A stretch of DNA of 64,000 bases from Lachnospiraceae bacterium. Lineage in GTDB: Bacteria > Bacillota > Clostridia > Lachnospirales > Lachnospiraceae. The notes below the pieces were generated by a model. That model was not told the DNA's origin. It saw only the letters and a program-made list of their open reading frames with translations, and did no database searches. A program made the translations under genes and the position numbers. The stretch covers positions 1 through 64,000 of the forward strand of contig JAGACK010000017.1 in assembly GCA_017614155.1 (NCBI GenBank), read 5' to 3'. Positions 33,382 to 43,585 of this stretch are shown piece by piece (position 1 is the first letter of the stretch; each line of letters begins with the position of its first letter).

Positions 33382-36300
33382 TCACGCAGGCATGGCCTTT
33401 GGCTTCGGATCTTTCTTGAGGAACAGGAAGATAGAAAGCGCCGCCAGTCCGATGCTGATAAACCACTTGGGACTGATGGGATCACCGGTCTTCGGAGTCG
33501 AATCCATCACACCATAATCCAGGTTTGATATATCCACATAGAATCCGTAGGGCGAGAAGTGGGGTGCCACAAAGGTTGCACACTCGCGTCCCTGCAGCAT
33601 TGAATACTGCGTGTTCAGATCCTCGAGATTTCCGGTGGCATCAACTGCCGCCATCCTGTTGTTCGCTCCGTACTGTGCAAGCGAATCAGGCAGAGGCAGT
33701 GTCATGGTCACGGTCACGCCGGTTGAATCCACAGGATTTCCGTTCTCATCACGAAGCGAGATATCCATCGAATAATAACGGATATTGTCAAGTGATCCGT
33801 ACCTGTTTATGAGAGCCTGACGGAAGCTGTTCTCGGCCTCTTCGCTTCTTGTGATGATGACCTGGTATCCGTCAGCCGTTCCGCCGTTGATGGCATCAAT
33901 ATGTGCGGCTCTCAGCAGATTTGAAAGTTCCTCATCCGTTGCGGGCCTGACTGCTCCGCTGTTTCTCTGTGCAGATCCGCCCGAAGTCGTGGTCCTGCTT
34001 GAATTTGATCCGCCCGAGCTCGAAGATGACTTTGAGCTGCTCGAAGAGGCTGACGAACTACCCGAACTTGACGAACTGCCTGAGCTGGACGAACTTTTGC
34101 TTGATGAACTTCCGGAAGAACTCGAGGAGCTGGAGCTTGTCGTGCTCTTTTCTTTTGTTATGGCAAATCTCGAAGAGGTATAGGTATCGAAATAATAATC
34201 ACCCATACCGGTTATCGTTGCTATCGCCTGTTTCTTTTTGCTTATCTTGGTGCAGGTGACAGCATAATCAACGCCTTCTACCAGAGTCTTTCCTGTTGTG
34301 CGGTCTACAAGCACGATATTTGCGGACACATTGTTCTTGCTGTCATAGGTTCCTCCGGATATCGTCAGATCTATGGTCTTTCCGGGAGGTGTGGGGCTTC
34401 CTGTTATATTCTCCGAAACGCTCTTTTTGATGGAGAAGTAACTGGTTCCCTTTTTGCCCGCATAGTTACCGATACCGTTAATGCTGATGCTTCCTGTGTG
34501 GCCCATGCTCTTGTTATCATGAGAACCGTCACCGTAAGTGAGCGTATAGTCTTCTCCTTCAACAAGTATTATGTCATGGTTAGCCGTGCTTCTGACGATC
34601 GGCTTCGGAGTTATCTTTGTTCCAGTCCACTTGAACACCCCGGGACCTGTATAATTGTAATCCACATCAAAGTCGCCGTAGCCGGGTGTGGGCGTTGGTG
34701 TAGGGCCGGGATCTGACCCGTCTGTAACCTTGAAGGTTCCCGTTAGTGTCCCTTCGTAGTCTCCTGTTCCAGTCAGTGTAAAAGTATATGTTCCCTTATC
34801 GATCGGAGTAACGGCAAGTGCATTCATAGTATAGTGTGTTCCGCTTGTAAGCATTGATCCGCCGTCAACTACATAAAAATCTCCGCTGGTGAATGTCCCG
34901 GGTTCCCATGGTATTTCCTTGCCGGTCCATGCACGAATCGCATATGTCCCGTCAGAAGACTTGTTTCCGTTATAGATGATAGAACATGATGAAAGGCCCT
35001 TCTTTGTTTCTTCCGACTGAGATGTGGTACCAAGCCAGTAAAGGTTGTCCTTTGTATCACCTGTATCATTCTGACGGCACATTGTATAAGTTGTATCGCC
35101 CTGTGCCGTACTCCTGAAATAGTATGCGTCATCTTTGGGTGAAGATGTGGTGTAATCAAAGATATTCTGCTTTCCTTCCTCATAGGACATATATCCATTA
35201 TATATACGGAACAGTGGCTGTGAGGAATTGTGAATTGCAAGATTCTGGAATGAACCCTTATCAAGTTTTGCAATATTTTCAGCTAATGTCACACGTATCA
35301 GTGAGTTTGCACCGTTAAAGCAGTTCTCAGGTATTTCGGTCACGCTCGAACCGGTGGTTGAAAAGATCTGCAGGTTCTGATTATCTGAAAATGCACCTTT
35401 GCTGATCTCGTCTACTGCTCTGCCTTTAATGGCTGCAGGAACAGAATAAGTGGTCGTCGGAGAGTTTTCAAGCATTTCAGCTATACGGTAATTCCCACCG
35501 GCTGCAGGAGGCGTGCCAACAGAGGTGATTCCTGCAACAGTCGAAGGTGCATACAGCACACCGTTTTCAGCATAGCAATAGTCACTTGCTGCATCCACAG
35601 TGATATCTGTCAGAGCATCGCATCCCTTAAAAGGAAGTGTTCCGACATCATAAAGTGTCATCGGAAGCGCGACCTCGTTCAACGCCGTACACTCCTGGAA
35701 CTGTCCGTTTGCCAGTTTTTTCAGACCGTATTCATTTCCATCTGTACCGGTAGATGAAACCGCCTCAAATTTCTCGATATTCTTGTCGTTATAGAACAGC
35801 GTGTCTGAGATTTCCTCAACACCCCCGGGAACTTTGCATGCTTTTATCCCGGTATTTTTATTGAGCCCGGATCCAGTAATGGTGGTTGCTACTTTTGAAA
35901 GAGTCTTATCTTTTTCAACAATAAGAGTCACATCGTCATCATCCGGCCCGTATTTTCCGGACGCTCTGAATTCAATATTATTTGCCATACAATATTCGTA
36001 GGCATTTTCTCCATCCGCAGTCGTTTTGCTCCGCATGTCTCCATAAACAAAGAAACTGCTGTTACCGGTCGGGAATACGGGGGGCTTTGAAGTATCATCT
36101 TCTAATTGTGTTGTATTCTCGGATGACATGATAACATTATCAAGATTTGTCATCTTGTTGAATGCTCCGGCGGATATGTAATCCACAGTAGGCGGAACAG
36201 TTATAGAGGTGATAACCCTACTTCCCATATTGCTGAAAGGATTCTCCCCAATCGATGAAACCTGTACACTTCCTGTAGGACCCGTCACAGTGTCCGGAAT

Positions 36301-37575
36301 CAGGATTGTGTTGGGATGATCCATATTGTTTGAGATGTAGCCATTGACATTGATATTTACAAGCTGACCGGTGCTTGTCACATCAAAATACTTGCTGGCA
36401 AATCCACCGGTATCATCCTTGCAGATATAGGTAATACCATTTGCCATACAGTAATCATAAGCACTTGTAAACTTTGTAACACCGTCAACCTCAATATAGC
36501 GGTAGCCTCTTATCTTAAAGTTTTCATTCAGTGCTGTGGGAAGAGAACCGTCTATCGTAATATCATTATTATTCTCTGTAGCAGAGTAAACAGGACCATT
36601 TGTCAGGTCAATGGTCTCAAGCTTGTTGCAGTCCTTAAAAAGTCCGCTTACAAGAGCAGGCAGTGTATTTGGGAAAGTAACAGTAATAAGATTGCCACAT
36701 CCGTCAAATGAACCCGATCCTATGCCTGCAAGTCCACCGGGAAATGTAACCGTTGTCAGATTCTCACAACCTGAAAAAGTGTCTGTCCCAATTGAATTGA
36801 ATTTGCCTTCAAAGGTTACCGTTTGGAGATTTTTGCAATCCTTAAAAACAGCATTCAGTAACTTAACTTCACTTGAAACACTGTCCGGACCTTTAACGGT
36901 TATGCTGCTTTTGAGATCGGATCCTTCAAATGCATTGTTTCCCATATAACTGAATGATCCGGTTTCGGGCATGCCGCCAAGTCCTGATTTGTAAAATGCC
37001 ATGTCTCCGATGTTTGTATTTCCGGCTGAAGAAAGAAAACAGTTAGCAAGCTTAGTACAGTCTTTAAAGGCCCTGGCGCCAACTTTGTTTGTATTTCTGC
37101 CGGTATATTGCGAAAGATTTGGACAGCTTTCAAAGACACCATCTTTTATCTCTATAACATCATCTGCCGTAACGTTTGTAATATCTCCGAAAATATTTGA
37201 ATTTTTAAAAGCGTTTGAATCTATTACCGTACATATATATGTTTTGGATGTATCCATGGGATCGGTGATCGTGCCAAGTGTAATGTTGCTTTCGGTGGCC
37301 GAAGTATCACTTTTGCCGATATCCTTAAGCATCACTGTTCCGGGTGTGGCTAAAGTCTCATACTCATAGTAAAGATTGCCTTCTGTTATGTTTATAGTCT
37401 CGCCCGCGGCGCCTGCAGCTTCTTCACTATCTTCTGCGGCTCTTGAAGGAGTCGCAGGTATAGCTGCTACTATCAACGCAGATACCATAAGAAGAGCCGC
37501 TATGGTTCGCCTTGCAGCCCGGTTTAAGTATCTCCTGCTCTTTTTCTTTTTTGTTGTGGTCTTTTTTGCAGCCAT
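33382..37575 (-). CDS. Cell-wall-anchored BspA-type LRR protein with sorting signal
   Basis: 1397 residues from the ATG at 37575 (GGAGGAAG site 5 bases before; an upstream in-frame TTG is not needed). A Lys-rich signal peptide (1-46) is followed by about 15 LRR_5 units to about 860. MBG-like repeats follow, then a poly-Ser/Gly linker of about 60 residues and a small beta domain. The end is TPKTGD (Thr1360) plus a hydrophobic span and a basic tail. That is a sortase signal, and a class B sortase gene lies 8 kb away. One of three giant surface proteins in this block. Confidence 0.88.
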   Translation of the reverse strand: MAAKKTTTKKKKSRRYLNRAARRTIAALLMVSALIVAAIPATPSRAAEDSEEAAGAAGETINITEGNLYYEYETLATPGTVMLKDIGKSDTSATESNITLGTITDPMDTSKTYICTVIDSNAFKNSNIFGDITNVTADDVIEIKDGVFESCPNLSQYTGRNTNKVGARAFKDCTKLANCFLSSAGNTNIGDMAFYKSGLGGMPETGSFSYMGNNAFEGSDLKSSITVKGPDSVSSEVKLLNAVFKDCKNLQTVTFEGKFNSIGTDTFSGCENLTTVTFPGGLAGIGSGSFDGCGNLITVTFPNTLPALVSGLFKDCNKLETIDLTNGPVYSATENNNDITIDGSLPTALNENFKIRGYRYIEVDGVTKFTSAYDYCMANGITYICKDDTGGFASKYFDVTSTGQLVNINVNGYISNNMDHPNTILIPDTVTGPTGSVQVSSIGENPFSNMGSRVITSITVPPTVDYISAGAFNKMTNLDNVIMSSENTTQLEDDTSKPPVFPTGNSSFFVYGDMRSKTTADGENAYEYCMANNIEFRASGKYGPDDDDVTLIVEKDKTLSKVATTITGSGLNKNTGIKACKVPGGVEEISDTLFYNDKNIEKFEAVSSTGTDGNEYGLKKLANGQFQECTALNEVALPMTLYDVGTLPFKGCDALTDITVDAASDYCYAENGVLYAPSTVAGITSVGTPPAAGGNYRIAEMLENSPTTTYSVPAAIKGRAVDEISKGAFSDNQNLQIFSTTGSSVTEIPENCFNGANSLIRVTLAENIAKLDKGSFQNLAIHNSSQPLFRIYNGYMSYEEGKQNIFDYTTSSPKDDAYYFRSTAQGDTTYTMCRQNDTGDTKDNLYWLGTTSQSEETKKGLSSCSIIYNGNKSSDGTYAIRAWTGKEIPWEPGTFTSGDFYVVDGGSMLTSGTHYTMNALAVTPIDKGTYTFTLTGTGDYEGTLTGTFKVTDGSDPGPTPTPTPGYGDFDVDYNYTGPGVFKWTGTKITPKPIVRSTANHDIILVEGEDYTLTYGDGSHDNKSMGHTGSISINGIGNYAGKKGTSYFSIKKSVSENITGSPTPPGKTIDLTISGGTYDSKNNVSANIVLVDRTTGKTLVEGVDYAVTCTKISKKKQAIATITGMGDYYFDTYTSSRFAITKEKSTTSSSSSSSSGSSSSKSSSSSGSSSSSGSSSASSSSSKSSSSSGGSNSSRTTTSGGSAQRNSGAVRPATDEELSNLLRAAHIDAINGGTADGYQVIITRSEEAENSFRQALINRYGSLDNIRYYSMDISLRDENGNPVDSTGVTVTMTLPLPDSLAQYGANNRMAAVDATGNLEDLNTQYSMLQGRECATFVAPHFSPYGFYVDISNLDYGVMDSTPKTGDPISPKWFISIGLAALSIFLFLKKDPKPKAMPA

Positions 37576-37609
37576 ATTGACTTCCTCCAAACCCGTTTCG
37601 GGCTATGAT

Positions 37610-40600
37610 CTACTGAGTGACAAATACTTTTATCTTAACCGTTGTGCCGTTTATCTTTGCGGAAACAGTTGTCTTTCCCTGTTTTCTTCCCTCTATTATA
37701 CCGTTTTCATCTGCAAAGGCAATTTTATTGTCTTTGCTCTTCCAGATAACATGCTGTGATATATCTGGTGCATCTATTACAAACCTTGTTCCGGTTTTGA
37801 GAGTCAGGAGATATTCATTGGTCGCTGTCCTGCCTATCCTTTGATCCTCAGTGGAAAGATCCGGATCTTCAACATGAACCTTTGTACTGTAATGCATCCC
37901 GTTATAGGAACAGGACACTACTGATGTACCAACATTTACGCCATAAACAGTTCCCATGGTCTTAGGATCAGAGCCCAAAAGAACTATATCTCCTTCGTTT
38001 GTGGCGCTCCAATGGGCTTTTTTATTGTTTACTTTATAATAAGACAGTTTTTCGTTCTTTCCGACATTGATATAAGTCTCGGTTTTGGAAGGAATCGTAT
38101 CCACGGTCACTTTCATTGTCTTTACTCGTGTATCTCCTCTCCTTCCTATCAGGGTGGAAACTCCGCAGGCTTTTGCCTTGAGTTGCCCGGTCACGCTCAC
38201 CCTGACTATACCATCATCCCAGGCAAGCCAGCCGGATTTATCAAGATCCCTGGTCCCGCTTTCATCACTGAGTCTCCAGTCAAGCTTATTCGGCTTTTCA
38301 CCATTTACGGCTATGCTGTGAAGATCCAGCGTCTGTGCCGGACGGAGCGTAAATGCATATACTCCGTCAAATGTTGCGGGAGCTGTAAATTTATCTGATA
38401 CAGTAACCTTGCAGGTGTAGCCTTTACCGTTCATATATGCGGTAATATTGGCCTTTCCTTTTGCCAGTGCCGTAATGACGCCTTCATCAACAGCAGCAAC
38501 CCTGGGATTTGAAGAGGCCCATGCTATGTTGAGACCACCGGAATAGGAAACCGTAATCTTCTGGGTGCTTCCAACTCCCATTGTAAGCTTCTTTGCAGAC
38601 AGTTCCGGATCAACAACCTTTATCTTGTACTGCACATTAGGAGTTACAGCAGTATTAGTTATCGTAACAGGCACATTTGATGGATTTTTTGCTTTTGCTT
38701 TCCCTGTCTTTTTATTGATTGTCACTATCTGCTTATTTGATGTATTCCATATGCCGGGACCGAAATCATAGGACTGTCCTTTTACCATGGTAATATTATC
38801 CGGATCTGACAAATCCATCTCTTTGTCCATTCCTGAGTGTACATCATCTTTCGAAACGGTCTGAGAGATAAACCTTGCTGTAAGGATCAGATCCTTTTCA
38901 ACCGGATCCGAGAAGTTCCACTTCCAGTTTCCTTCATACCACCCCATGAATATATGCCCGCTCTTCTCAGGATCCGGAGGCCTTTTAACAACCTGTCCGA
39001 GACTTACTATCTCTTTTGCGATCTCCTCACCGTCAACAATGAATTTCACCTTTGCGTGTCCGACAGGAGCAGGAGGATCTGCTTTCTTGAAATGTGCAAT
39101 GATAGTATGACCGGTCTCGACTTTTATAAATGTATACGAATTTGTTGAAACTGTTATAGATGATCCGTCAATATCAAGATAGTCGAGTTCATATCCATCC
39201 AATGCATCAAAATAGAAAGTAGCATTCTGACCGTCAATCACAGGGACTTCACCACCCGGCGAGATCATTCCGAAACTGTCCGCGCAACTTGCCGATATTA
39301 TATGTTTGACAACGGGTATCTCCCTGAAATACACTGTAACAGTATGATTTTTACTGATACTTTCGAGGATATACGAATTTCCCTCAAAAGGAGTATCCAC
39401 ATTATCTATTTTTAGAAGATAAGCTTCATATCCGGTCTTTGGAGAGAATGTAAATTTCTGGCTTGCGCTCTCTTTTACACTAAATGTACCGCTTGGCGCT
39501 ATACTTCCGTAAGTTGTAGGAGATGCAACAGCAGTTATCTTGTAGGACGGTGCAGTCACCCATTTGGCATAGATTGTAATATCATCCTTTACCTGTGAAC
39601 TGAAATCGTAAGGAGTTGTCAGAGAACTGTTTTTGTACCAACCGCCAAACCGGAAACCGGCCTTTGATGGAATGGTCGATACAGAAACGGTCTCACCGTA
39701 GACTACGATCTGTGAAGGGATAACTGATCCGCCGTTAGTTTCAAAAGTAACCTTGCATTTGCGTACGAGCCAGTTTGCATACAGCCATCCGTTTTCTGTG
39801 ACTTTCTTTGATGAAAAATCCCATTTTTCAGTTTTTATATAGTTTTTGTTTGGATACCATCCGTCGAGAGTATATCCTTCTCTTGTGACCGTAGGCTCAG
39901 GGAGAAGGCTTCCGTAAGACACAGTCTTTTTAGTAAAATTGATCACAGCATCAGAACTGACCTTGTCAAATGACACCGTAAGCATCACGGGCCCCCAGCC
40001 CGCATATATGGTAACATCATGATCCGGCATCAATTCGGTGCTGAAATCATAAGAAACCGTACACTGCTTGTTTTTATACCATCCCAGGAAATCAAAACCG
40101 GTTCTTTCTGGGTCGCTTGAAGGTCTTATAACCTTGTCCTGATAATAAACCTGCTGTGTGGCTAAACTGCTGCCATTACTTTCAAAGGTTACGGTATATT
40201 TTTCCTTTTCCCATGCTGCATAAAGAGTAATATCAACATCCACATCGGAATCAAAATCATATTCATATCCTGCTTCACATTCAGATATAGTATACCAGTC
40301 CTTTAATTTGTAACCCGTCTTTGTAGTGGCCGGAATGTCTTTTTTATAAAGTTTCTGCCCCGAAACAACTTTTATGGGAGATATCGGTGTACCTCCTGCT
40401 GTGTTAAAGGAAACAACATGAGCTTCTTTCCACTTGGCATACAGCCAGGCGTCTGCATATATTCCTGATGAAAAATCAAAATAATTTTTCAGTTCGACAT
40501 CTTTACACCAACCCAAAAGCTTAAAACCGTCTTTATCGATCTTCGGTTCTGTAAGTTTTTTTCCATAATCGACTGTTTGTGCTGAAACTGACGGTCCGCC

Positions 40601-41986
40601 GTTCGAATCAAACGATACGGTAAAGGTCTTCATTTTCCAACCGGCATATATAGTTATGACGCCGGCAACTGCATCACCATCTGATACTGTTTTGTTAAAA
40701 TTCCACGGATCAGTACAGGCTTCATCACGATACCAGCCTGTAAAATAAAAATTTGTATGCTCCGGGTCTTCAGCGGGTCTGGTTACCTTTTCCCCATATT
40801 CCAGACCTGTTATGTCAGAAGGCGTCTTAGTCGCACCCTGAACGGTTTCTGAATTACATTTAAACTTTACTGTATATTTTATCTTTTCATATTTGGTGTA
40901 TAGTTTGATGTTCTCGTTGACCTGATAATTGTCTAGATCAGTATATACATTACCGGGATCTGTATACCATCCGGCAAATGTATAGCCATCATATCGCGAG
41001 GGCTCAGGGACTCCCGTAAGTTTCTGCGAAAAAGCCACATTTTTTATAACTGTATTGGAAACAGACTGGTCCGGTCTCCTGTATTCAAGAGTTACCGTGC
41101 GCGGCTGTGGATCCCAATGAGCATGAAGTGTTCTGTCTCCGGTTATCGGAGTAGAAAAATCCCATTTGGTCCCACCATCTTTTTCCGTGTACCAACCAAG
41201 AAAATCATGTCCGGTTCTTGTCATATTTGGTGAAACTGCAGTACTGCCATCGTCTATATGCTGTAACCATTGATCGGCATAATCAAATTTTCCGCCATGC
41301 CCGATAAACTGAACATCATAAACCCTCATCCATTTTGCGTATAGAGAAAAACTGCTGCTTTCGGTACCACCAAAGTTATATAGCGTGTTATAAGATGTAT
41401 CTTTATACCAGTCAAGAAAACGGTATTTATCACGGGTTGGGTCGGGATCCGGTTTTGTTACAACAGTGATGTTTTCTTCAATTCTCTGAGAAGAAACAGA
41501 AGAACCGCCCATAGAATTAAAATCAATAGTATGAAGCTGCACCCAGTGCTGCTTTATATCTAGTGTAGAAGTAACCGGTGTTGAGAATTTAAATTCCACA
41601 GAAGGGTTTGAACCAATATACCAATTCTTAAATCTCCAATCTCCAACCGCATCCGTAATTTCATCTCCAATATTCGGAGATTGAGGAACCCTGCCGACAC
41701 TTACAATAGTCGAACCATCATCCACATCAAAAGTTTCGTATGCATTCTCTTCCCTGTTCCAAATATGTACAGTATGTTTTGGAGCATCTCCTGCAGCCTC
41801 CTCAGCCAAAGTCTGTAGATCTTCTTCAGCCGCTTCAGGCATTGTCTGTTCTTCAGCTTGAACAGCAGATCCATATTCCTCATCCGCATATATATAAGCA
41901 CCGGAAAAAGGCTCAGCCGTCATCAGGAAGATGAGGACAAAAGCCATTATTCTTGCTATTCTTCTCTTTATCAGATTTAGTCGCAT
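37610..41986 (-). CDS. InlB B-repeat surface protein with Big_2 domains
   Basis: 1458 residues from the ATG at 41986, preceded by GAGGTG. Signal peptide 1-35 (RRIARIMAFVLIFLMTAEPFSGA in parts). About twelve InlB/Listeria-Bacteroides repeats of roughly 70 residues follow, each with VTFDSNGG...GY.F.GWY....YDF...V..D.TLYA.W. Then come two GHT/VYF beta units and three or four Big_2-like domains at the C-terminus (KMTKGQSYDFGPG..., AALAKGKANITAYMNGK). There is no wall-anchor motif. Expected to be an adhesin or a structural surface protein. Confidence 0.85.
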   Translation of the reverse strand: MRLNLIKRRIARIMAFVLIFLMTAEPFSGAYIYADEEYGSAVQAEEQTMPEAAEEDLQTLAEEAAGDAPKHTVHIWNREENAYETFDVDDGSTIVSVGRVPQSPNIGDEITDAVGDWRFKNWYIGSNPSVEFKFSTPVTSTLDIKQHWVQLHTIDFNSMGGSSVSSQRIEENITVVTKPDPDPTRDKYRFLDWYKDTSYNTLYNFGGTESSSFSLYAKWMRVYDVQFIGHGGKFDYADQWLQHIDDGSTAVSPNMTRTGHDFLGWYTEKDGGTKWDFSTPITGDRTLHAHWDPQPRTVTLEYRRPDQSVSNTVIKNVAFSQKLTGVPEPSRYDGYTFAGWYTDPGNVYTDLDNYQVNENIKLYTKYEKIKYTVKFKCNSETVQGATKTPSDITGLEYGEKVTRPAEDPEHTNFYFTGWYRDEACTDPWNFNKTVSDGDAVAGVITIYAGWKMKTFTVSFDSNGGPSVSAQTVDYGKKLTEPKIDKDGFKLLGWCKDVELKNYFDFSSGIYADAWLYAKWKEAHVVSFNTAGGTPISPIKVVSGQKLYKKDIPATTKTGYKLKDWYTISECEAGYEYDFDSDVDVDITLYAAWEKEKYTVTFESNGSSLATQQVYYQDKVIRPSSDPERTGFDFLGWYKNKQCTVSYDFSTELMPDHDVTIYAGWGPVMLTVSFDKVSSDAVINFTKKTVSYGSLLPEPTVTREGYTLDGWYPNKNYIKTEKWDFSSKKVTENGWLYANWLVRKCKVTFETNGGSVIPSQIVVYGETVSVSTIPSKAGFRFGGWYKNSSLTTPYDFSSQVKDDITIYAKWVTAPSYKITAVASPTTYGSIAPSGTFSVKESASQKFTFSPKTGYEAYLLKIDNVDTPFEGNSYILESISKNHTVTVYFREIPVVKHIISASCADSFGMISPGGEVPVIDGQNATFYFDALDGYELDYLDIDGSSITVSTNSYTFIKVETGHTIIAHFKKADPPAPVGHAKVKFIVDGEEIAKEIVSLGQVVKRPPDPEKSGHIFMGWYEGNWKWNFSDPVEKDLILTARFISQTVSKDDVHSGMDKEMDLSDPDNITMVKGQSYDFGPGIWNTSNKQIVTINKKTGKAKAKNPSNVPVTITNTAVTPNVQYKIKVVDPELSAKKLTMGVGSTQKITVSYSGGLNIAWASSNPRVAAVDEGVITALAKGKANITAYMNGKGYTCKVTVSDKFTAPATFDGVYAFTLRPAQTLDLHSIAVNGEKPNKLDWRLSDESGTRDLDKSGWLAWDDGIVRVSVTGQLKAKACGVSTLIGRRGDTRVKTMKVTVDTIPSKTETYINVGKNEKLSYYKVNNKKAHWSATNEGDIVLLGSDPKTMGTVYGVNVGTSVVSCSYNGMHYSTKVHVEDPDLSTEDQRIGRTATNEYLLTLKTGTRFVIDAPDISQHVIWKSKDNKIAFADENGIIEGRKQGKTTVSAKINGTTVKIKVFVTQ

Positions 41987-42017
41987 ACTGCACCTCAAAA
42001 CTTAATGTCGGTATCTG

Positions 42018-42197
42018 TCACATTCTTGCAGCATTTTTCTTTGGGTTCACACGCTTGAACTGGCGAAGAATCTCATCGGACAATTCAGGCGATTCATCAT
42101 CAAATGTGATTTTTTCAGGTTTTGAACTGTGTAAACTTTTTATCTGCTCATCAGACGGTCTATCATCTTTTTTTATCATCATTCTAACTGTTGCCAT
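42018..42197 (-). CDS. Small BrnA-like putative antitoxin
   Basis: 59 residues from the ATG at 42197, with GGAGGAAG about 11 bases upstream; it overlaps the fusion gene before it by 14 bases. The middle FDDESPELSDEILRQF matches the acidic DDE.PELTDE motif seen in BrnA-type and related short antitoxins that sit beside BrnT toxins. The usual C-terminal ribbon-helix-helix of full BrnA is absent, so DNA binding is doubtful. The end is basic (RVNPKKNAARM). Toxin neutraliser is inference from motif and gene order. Confidence 0.55.
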   Translation of the reverse strand: MATVRMMIKKDDRPSDEQIKSLHSSKPEKITFDDESPELSDEILRQFKRVNPKKNAARM

Positions 42198-42594
42198 AAT
42201 AGAGCTCTTCCTCCTTTTTTGTTGCAAATCTTGCGGATATGAGTCTTATTGTGTTACCCCGGTCCGTGTAAACAACAAAAAGAACATCTCCAACTTTGCC
42301 AATTGTGTAATATCTGTCCTCTTCGTCACTATGAATCTTTCCGCCATAAACCAGGAGATCGAATTCTTTCGAAAAAGCGTCGTACAGCGCAAATTTGAAC
42401 TCCCTGTACCTTTTATTGCTTCCAAATTTCGTTGACGAAAGAGATCTGTCCTTAGGTTCTATATAAAGATCGATATCCGAATCGTTTCCGGCCTCATTTC
42501 TGGAATACGAACCAAACAAAATAACAGTACCAAGTATATCCGAGTACAGGTCACAGATCGATCTTAATTTCTCAATCAGTTCTTCTTTTCCCAT
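42184..42594 (-). CDS. Nucleotidyltransferase-BrnT chimeric protein (putative toxin)
   Basis: 136 residues from the ATG at 42594. Residues about 1-84 form a minimal nucleotidyltransferase of the MNT type: GS at 28-29 (LFGSYSRNEAGNDSDIDLY) with Asp40/Asp42, and a third acidic residue in EFDLL near 79. Residues about 85-133 match the C-terminal half of BrnT RNase toxins: H88-S-DEEDRY, TIGK, LFVVYTDRG, IRLISAR, AT..E...LYY. The BrnT N-terminal strand and helix are replaced by the NTase. It is followed, with 14-base overlap, by a BrnA-like gene. Both halves look intact at the motif level. Confidence 0.6.
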   Translation of the reverse strand: MGKEELIEKLRSICDLYSDILGTVILFGSYSRNEAGNDSDIDLYIEPKDRSLSSTKFGSNKRYREFKFALYDAFSKEFDLLVYGGKIHSDEEDRYYTIGKVGDVLFVVYTDRGNTIRLISARFATKKEEELYYGNS

Positions 42595-42770
42595 AATCCA
42601 CCCACTCTTATTGTATATCGGCACATATGGTATGTTTCTTTATATCAAAACAGCGTATCAGCAACTCTGTCGAAAAATACATAATAATCCGCTTATATTA
42701 TACTCCAAAAACATGTTTTATTACAAATATTCAAGTTTACATAATTCAAGACACAGAAAAGTATCTATCG

Positions 42771-43568
42771 TTACTGATACATGAACTCCAGCCGTTTATA
42801 GATCTGCTTAAAGTCAAGTCTGCATTCGCCGTTCCAGATGGCTACGGGTATGCTGTCTTCAAAGGTGTAGTGTTCAGGCATGTCTGATTTATTGAAATCA
42901 TAAACCATTACTTTCTTTTCCTCGGGAAAGACCAGCCAGTACTCTTTTACTCCGGCTTTTTTGTATTTCTGAACCTTGATGAAAATGTCCACGGTAACTC
43001 TTGACGGCGATATCACTTCTATCACAAGATCCGGAGCTCCGACAATACGCTCTTTTGTTATCTTGCTCCTGTCGCAGACAACGAGGACATCAGGCTGCAC
43101 CATGGTTTTGTCATCACAGTCAAGCTGAACATCGGTAGGCGCTACAAAAGGAACGCACTCACGGTTGTTATTCCGTATATAATCCTTTAGCAAAAAACTG
43201 ATCTCCAGCCCTAAGGCCTGATGTATGGTGGTCGGAGCAGCCATATCATAAAACTGACCGTCTATGAGCTCAATCCTGGCGCCCTCCGGAAGGGCAATAT
43301 AATCTTCGATAGTCTTTTCAGTTTTTTCGTAAGTCACAGAATCATGTTCGGCTGCTATGTATTCAGCTGCAGCGTCAGCAACAGCCAGAGGTTCATGATC
43401 ATCCGACAGCGCTTTTGTCAGGGCGCACAAAGTATCATATCTTGGAGACTCCGTCTCGCCGCTCAGGATCTTCTGCACGGTACCGATCGGCACTCCCGAT
43501 AGTTCTGAAAGCATTTTGTTGGAATATCCTAGTTCCTTTTTCTTTTTTTTGATCTCTTCTATTGTCAT
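42771..43568 (-). CDS. XRE helix-turn-helix / Uma2 (DUF820) nuclease-like protein
   Basis: 265 residues from the ATG at 43568 with a GGAGG site. Residues 1-60 are an XRE helix-turn-helix (KMLSELSGVPIGTVQKIL). Residues about 85-255 are a Uma2-type PD-(D/E)XK domain: ARIELIDGQFYDM, VQPDVLVVCD, APDLVIEVISPS and a following K.QKY..AGVKEYWLV. Most Uma2 proteins have no HTH. A terminator-like hairpin lies immediately upstream of its ribosome binding site. Known relatives are abundant in cyanobacteria and have no proven role. Could be a self-regulating nuclease. Confidence 0.75.
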   Translation of the reverse strand: MTIEEIKKKKKELGYSNKMLSELSGVPIGTVQKILSGETESPRYDTLCALTKALSDDHEPLAVADAAAEYIAAEHDSVTYEKTEKTIEDYIALPEGARIELIDGQFYDMAAPTTIHQALGLEISFLLKDYIRNNNRECVPFVAPTDVQLDCDDKTMVQPDVLVVCDRSKITKERIVGAPDLVIEVISPSRVTVDIFIKVQKYKKAGVKEYWLVFPEEKKVMVYDFNKSDMPEHYTFEDSIPVAIWNGECRLDFKQIYKRLEFMYQ

Positions 43569-43585
43569 ATCAGCCTCCAAAAAAA

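Follow-up and report, generated by a model that had tools for sequence, protein, structure and literature searches.

We found that the window, by which we mean the whole 64,000-nucleotide stretch analysed here, carries an in-frame chimera that joins the core of an MNT-type nucleotidyltransferase to the C-terminal half of a BrnT toxin and is followed by an overlapping gene for a short BrnA-like antitoxin. With a probability of about two in three, we read the locus as a recombinant remnant of two unrelated toxin-antitoxin (TA) modules, in which the toxin has been disarmed and the antitoxin gene survives. The features of the locus are collected in Table 1.

Table 1. Features of the chimeric locus and its flanks, in window coordinates.
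Feature	Position	Strand	Basis
Chimeric gene, 136 aa, nucleotidyltransferase core + BrnT C-terminal half	42184..42594	-	ORF translation, Pfam
Nucleotidyltransferase core, codons 1-85	42339..42594	-	Pfam PF18765/PF01909; identity to G026; DNA similarity ends at 42339
BrnT C-terminal half, residues 86-136	42187..42338	-	PF04365 positions 37-77 of 77; identity to standalone BrnTs
Short BrnA-like antitoxin, 59 aa, no RHH part	42018..42197	-	ORF; similarity to antitoxins of BrnT loci
Replaced segment, BrnT half + antitoxin, 342 bp; in G026, 472 bp (nucleotidyltransferase tail + HEPN)	41997..42338		Locus map, blastn
Upstream syntenic flank, 269-aa XRE-type HTH (PF01381) + Uma2 (PF05685), 78% identical in G026	42771..43580	-	Pfam, synteny
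Downstream syntenic flank, 1462-aa protein, 47% identical to G026 counterpart	37610..41998	-	Synteny

The chimeric gene starts with ATG at position 42594, with an alternative GTG start at 42624, 30 bp upstream. In Pfam scans, the full protein matches BrnT (PF04365) with 51.3 bits (cut-off 34.5) and the nucleotidyltransferase families PF18765 and PF01909 with 35.3 and 34.2 bits (cut-offs 26.9 and 21) at residues 8-83. Scanned separately, each half matches only its own family: residues 1-86, taken with ten upstream residues, give nucleotidyltransferase-type families alone, and the last 50 residues give BrnT as the sole match, with 48.0 bits over profile positions 37-77 of 77. These results confirm the first-pass annotation, which had proposed a nucleotidyltransferase-BrnT fusion beside a BrnA-like gene and had expected the two profiles in these two parts. 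The true BrnT similarity lies at about residues 88-128. The Pfam BrnT alignment also takes in residues 56-85, adding only about 3 bits; we rejected this part as homology, since the same residues are present in standalone nucleotidyltransferases. Additionally, the PDC-S09 models of PADLOC, which carry no description, match parts of residues 9-82, and a PHROGs family described as ribonuclease toxin matches residues 54-134. The MntA equivalog of NCBIfam scores 27.5 bits, below its cut-off of 60, which may miss true relatives too.

The C-terminal half is most similar to the standalone BrnT of genome G390 (71% identity), followed by four BrnTs of the same genus (64-67%), with lower values for others; in a search of 99 related genomes, the chimera matches standalone BrnTs from about residue 81 onward. 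The motifs HSDEEDRY, IRLISAR and ATKKE are present as initially reported. RNase activity of BrnT depends on D6, E7, K9, R41 and E78 (PMC5086665), and that of a relative on K17, H18 and E86 (PMC10714953). Placed by motif and by eye, the equivalents of R41 and E78 are kept in the chimera as R94 and E128, and the entire N-terminal half of BrnT is absent, including D6, E7 and K9 and the KH pair of these residue lists (PMC5086665, PMC10714953). A hybrid RNase toxin is thus unlikely, although BrnT-like proteins without some of the toxicity residues have been argued to be possibly active (PMC11090510). Some other BrnTs, inspected by eye, carry an insertion of roughly 30 residues within the C-terminal half and have short antitoxins alongside (L023 on contig 54 of the chimera's genome, G000; L068; L072).

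The catalytic motif of the N-terminal half is intact. The segment noted earlier as GS...DID at residues 28-42 is an exact GSX10DXD (G28, S29, D40 and D42), and D79 supplies the third aspartate. Residues 1-85 are 81% identical to a standalone MNT-type enzyme of G026, a genome of the same genus; for residues 1-90, the search of the 99 related genomes gave 79% (G026), 66% (G003) and 46% (G004) identity to same-genus standalone enzymes, one of which is encoded by a contig titled Lachnospiraceae bacterium RUI563. When eight such enzymes were combined into a profile, it matched MNT antitoxins of solved structure, 8xeh at 1e-4 and 5yep at 0.004. The relatives of the enzyme half adjoin a HEPN gene in G026, G003, G164, G329, G219, G027 and G037, and also in G758 and G672, which argues that this half derives from an antitoxin-type enzyme. 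The HEPN protein of G026 matches PF05168 with 27.8 bits (cut-off 22), and the RX4HXY motif is absent from six HEPNs of these pairs. The G026 pair is therefore consistent with a class II HEPN/MNT pair as described in PMC7641770. The authors of that paper give MNT as the antitoxin in class I, and for class II they are aware of no biochemistry, the TA role being untested (PMC7641770). A 2009 prediction had named MNT as the toxin (PMC2701414), as did the first reading of this locus; this assignment is not borne out, for in the HEPN/MNT systems tested experimentally the antitoxin role belongs to MNT (PMC7641770, PMC11586414). In G219 (C20:2168-2675), another nucleotidyltransferase gene adjoins a HEPN match with two stop codons, so toxin loss may occur in HEPN/MNT modules too.

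The HEPN partner is missing from the assembly of the chimera's genome, and the tail of the enzyme from the chimera itself. No HEPN match was obtained in the assembly of G000 at E<=1, while seven of eight other genomes, selected for carrying a related enzyme, contain one at E<1e-30; the exception is G004, whose enzyme is only 46% identical. The lost tail includes residues that are invariant in eight relatives, L97, I101, D104 and G105 in G026 numbering. Judged by distance from the third aspartate, the equivalents of MntA Q85 and Q87, which hold adenosine (PMC7641770), would also fall in the lost tail. In other MNTs the C-terminal helix binds HEPN; the Legionella MNT works without this helix (PMC11586414), and loss of the tail need therefore not kill the enzyme.

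Next, we compared the locus with that of G026, where the same site holds a 126-aa nucleotidyltransferase gene and an overlapping gene for a 126-aa HEPN protein. The gene order agrees with that of the window, except that in G026 the 533-aa gene and the HTH-Uma2 gene are separated by two additional genes. As demonstrated by blastn, DNA similarity runs from window position 42647 to 42339 (79%) and resumes from 41996 on (84%), and the 342 bp in between have no DNA similarity to G026. The break at 42339/41996 thus indicates that half a BrnT and a BrnA-like gene have taken the place of the enzyme tail and the HEPN gene. A similar short stretch, TAT Gxx Gxx AAG, is present close to the join in the enzymes and in the BrnT of L031; its last codon is not in every enzyme. 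The four flank proteins are 91, 74, 78 and 47% identical to their G026 counterparts; the last of these, the 1462-aa protein, evolves fast, as the three other neighbours reach 74-91%. Outer flank genes were named by eye as sortase, GIY-YIG and ligase-like. On the minus strand at 33382-41998, the window encodes two very large proteins of 1402 and 1462 aa, which look repeat-rich and secreted by eye.

This arrangement also bears on the idea that two loci were misjoined in a draft assembly. In its favour, the G000 genome is in 59 contigs and no second genome of the species was seen; however, the 342 bp foreign piece has DNA-similar syntenic flanks on both sides, so that a misjoining would have to have happened twice. 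Nor did the assembly yield another close copy of the BrnT half, and both ORFs and their overlap are intact. We consider an assembly artefact highly improbable.

The 59-aa protein encoded after the chimera gives no match in Pfam (including PF14384), NCBIfam or PADLOC, and only a chance-level match in PHROGs. Antitoxins from eight other BrnT loci, some long and some short, share 33-40% identity with it across 40-53 residues, and its N-terminal half and gene position are common to antitoxin partners of BrnTs. The first-pass annotation had called it a truncated antitoxin without a clear DNA-binding domain. The RHH part is indeed missing, but the protein has the ordinary local form and is not abnormally truncated: BrnTs with complete profile matches, too, can have an RHH-less antitoxin of 59-64 aa as neighbour. 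RHH-less BrnA-like antitoxins of this size are common beside BrnTs in the family (L038-L045, L023, L031). The short antitoxin of L038, beside a complete BrnT, has no PF14384 match either, and a longer antitoxin (L010/L032) reaches only 13.8 bits against the cut-off of 26.1.

The 14-bp overlap noted earlier was confirmed, with the antitoxin start inside the end of the chimera. The same arrangement, with the antitoxin starting inside the BrnT end, occurs at 12 of 13 loci in one set and 15 of 20 genus loci in another, the sets being partly shared; the latter count took in 20 of the 22 genus BrnT loci, its motif having missed G039 and G020:C5. The five genus loci without the overlap include two of the five loci with a broken toxin, the other three having it. 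Given how frequent the overlap is, overlapping translation may favour keeping the BrnT end here, but this is not a general need, since the non-overlapping loci keep their antitoxin.

The fate of other BrnT loci is informative. Among the 22 BrnT loci of the genus (23 rows), the toxin is broken in five, namely G033, the chimera itself (G000:C10), G011, G044 and G000:C7, two of which (G044 and G000:C7) are fragments below the Pfam cut-off, and draft-genome frameshifts can be sequencing errors. An antitoxin ORF is kept at all five, which makes toxin-first disarmament the best reading. Two more genomes of the family, G346 (near a contig end) and G326, have lost the toxin N-terminus or carry a frameshift with the antitoxin present. 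Similarly, an intact toxin is missing from 10 of 43 homologues of the brnTA locus of P. putida (PMC7280312). The remnant on contig 7 of the chimera's own genome (L075:3515-3649) consists of a 45-aa C-terminal BrnT fragment followed by a 77-aa antitoxin ORF. Against this pattern, stop codons interrupt the C-terminal half of BrnT as well as the antitoxin frame at L073 (G451 contig 7, 186300-188000), outside the genus, where toxin and antitoxin both look broken. An apparent N-terminal BrnT motif at G000:C10 was rejected as a chance match in the leader of the enzyme.

The surviving antitoxin might still be in use. As a solitary anti-addiction protein, co-expressed with the nucleotidyltransferase, the 59-aa protein would neutralise other BrnTs, for instance the two that G000 encodes on contigs C39 and C54. 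These two further BrnT loci have complete profile coverage, and the antitoxin ORFs retained at every broken genus locus are in keeping with such a role. However, the C39 and C54 BrnTs each have their own antitoxin, and where these align with the 59-aa protein their identity to it is about 38% and about 34%, respectively, which leaves this role unlikely.

We also analysed how the two halves of the chimera have evolved. Of 44 positions at which five standalone enzymes are invariant, the enzyme half keeps 43; the five relatives served as controls and, in a similar test, each differed at 0 to 4 out of 43-48 positions. The BrnT half keeps all 22 positions that are invariant among six BrnTs. Private changes in the enzyme half number five in G000 and eight in G026. 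Between these two genomes, the enzyme halves differ by 30 synonymous and 17 nonsynonymous codon differences (dN 0.133, dS 1.44). In branch dN/dS tests of the enzyme half, at saturated synonymous sites, a separate ratio for G000 fits better (p=0.013) and neutrality is compatible with the data (p=0.79); the same tests on G026, likewise at saturated sites, give p=0.12 and 0.69. For the BrnT half, again at saturated sites, a separate ratio is not favoured (p=0.43) and neutrality is rejected (p=0.02). Because the synonymous sites are saturated and the results point both ways, we give the codon tests no weight in either direction; the fusion would be either recent or constrained. An AlphaFold2 model of the chimera has pLDDT values of 84-96 in blocks of the enzyme core and 49-62 in blocks of the BrnT half; the input alignment was shallow and misplaced the first residues of the BrnT rows, and the low confidence of the BrnT half may reflect this.

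The in-frame join and the intact ORFs, with neither half looking decayed, count against a mere remnant and could mean selection. Under a functional alternative, the BrnT half would serve as a docking adapter through which the BrnA-like antitoxin controls the MNT nucleotidyltransferase, which would no longer serve HEPN and would modify a new RNA or protein target. The intact catalytic motif in an uninterrupted frame, the conserved positions of both halves and the preserved antitoxin overlap all agree with such a hybrid. Against it stand its occurrence in a single genome of the sets searched, the loss of the enzyme tail, the low-confidence model of the BrnT half and, for the enzyme half on the G000 branch, a neutrality that is not rejected in a test confounded by saturation, and we judge it quite improbable. 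If true, a working hybrid would mean that one recombination rewired an antitoxin enzyme into a different module, despite the strict pairing reported for HEPN-MNT (PMC2701414).

The chimera seems to be alone as far as we searched. No second fusion was found in 99 related, 48 genus, 397 family, 392 order and 398 phylum genomes, sets that overlap and each include G000. A tblastn search of plasmids returned five records, none covering 80% of the query; phages and viral contigs contained no such fusion at the sensitivity used; and among genome contigs there was one relative, a standalone enzyme, apparently on the G003 contig. Nine long-frame stretches with matches (L066-L074), hand-chosen and not exhaustive, include no such fusion. 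A wider family of such fusions is therefore rejected within these genome sets, plasmids, phages and viral contigs. What the first-pass annotation had named as a ground for refutation, a fusion confined to this one genome and produced by random recombination, fits the survey, but a single occurrence is no proof of lost function. In the literature, searches by title or abstract for BrnT with nucleotidyltransferase, fusion or HEPN returned no described fusion of this kind, as had been supposed, with most subscription papers lying outside the search.

Together, our data suggest the following history for the recombinant remnant. The site would originally have held a class II HEPN/MNT pair of nucleotidyltransferase and HEPN, a state that G026 presumably retains. 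Either a single replacement took place, or a brnTA module was gained and a deletion came later; in both cases the enzyme would have lost its final ~30 residues, BrnT its N-terminal half and the site its entire HEPN gene, and the remaining parts would have been joined in frame at codon 85/86. Because it overlaps the BrnT end, the intact short antitoxin would probably now be translated from the message of the nucleotidyltransferase. Since the N-terminal catalytic residues of BrnT are gone and no HEPN partner is present, neither parent activity is expected, and we infer that the chimera is now neither an RNase toxin nor a HEPN antitoxin. What persists would mainly be an antitoxin, possibly able to bind BrnTs, carried on a disarmed toxin fragment.

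The locus thus provides a case of two unrelated TA modules merging, mapped to the base against a relative, with the likely states before and after in one genus, and an example of toxin loss that leaves the antitoxin gene in place. It also carries a warning: an above-cut-off Pfam match to BrnT can stem from only half a toxin, fused with an antitoxin-type enzyme.

Among known systems, HEPN/MNT modules with proven AMPylation are assigned to type VII. The chimera resembles a class II HEPN/MNT pair in residues 1-85, which match the enzyme at the same site of G026 and keep GSX10DXD, but it has no HEPN gene, its last residues, in place of the ~30 of the enzyme, are BrnT sequence, and its neighbour is BrnA-like. 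HEPN-MNT modules have been reported to be strictly unique pairs, some domain fusions excepted (PMC2701414). With BrnT/BrnA type II TA systems (PF04365/PF14384), it shares residues 86-136 and the overlapping antitoxin gene, as in most related loci; here, however, the N-terminal half of BrnT (D6, E7, K9, KH) is missing, and the antitoxin has neither an RHH part nor a PF14384 match. The single-gene BrnT-BrnA fusions described in PMC11980606 likewise contain BrnT sequence in a fused protein, but they join the toxin to its own antitoxin, whereas here half a BrnT is joined to an unrelated antitoxin-type enzyme. A parallel in outcome is found in the broken brnTA loci related to that of Pseudomonas putida, where an antitoxin homologue stands without an intact toxin ORF (PMC7280312); in those loci the toxin is truncated or lost, whereas in the present locus it is fused in frame with a gene of another module.
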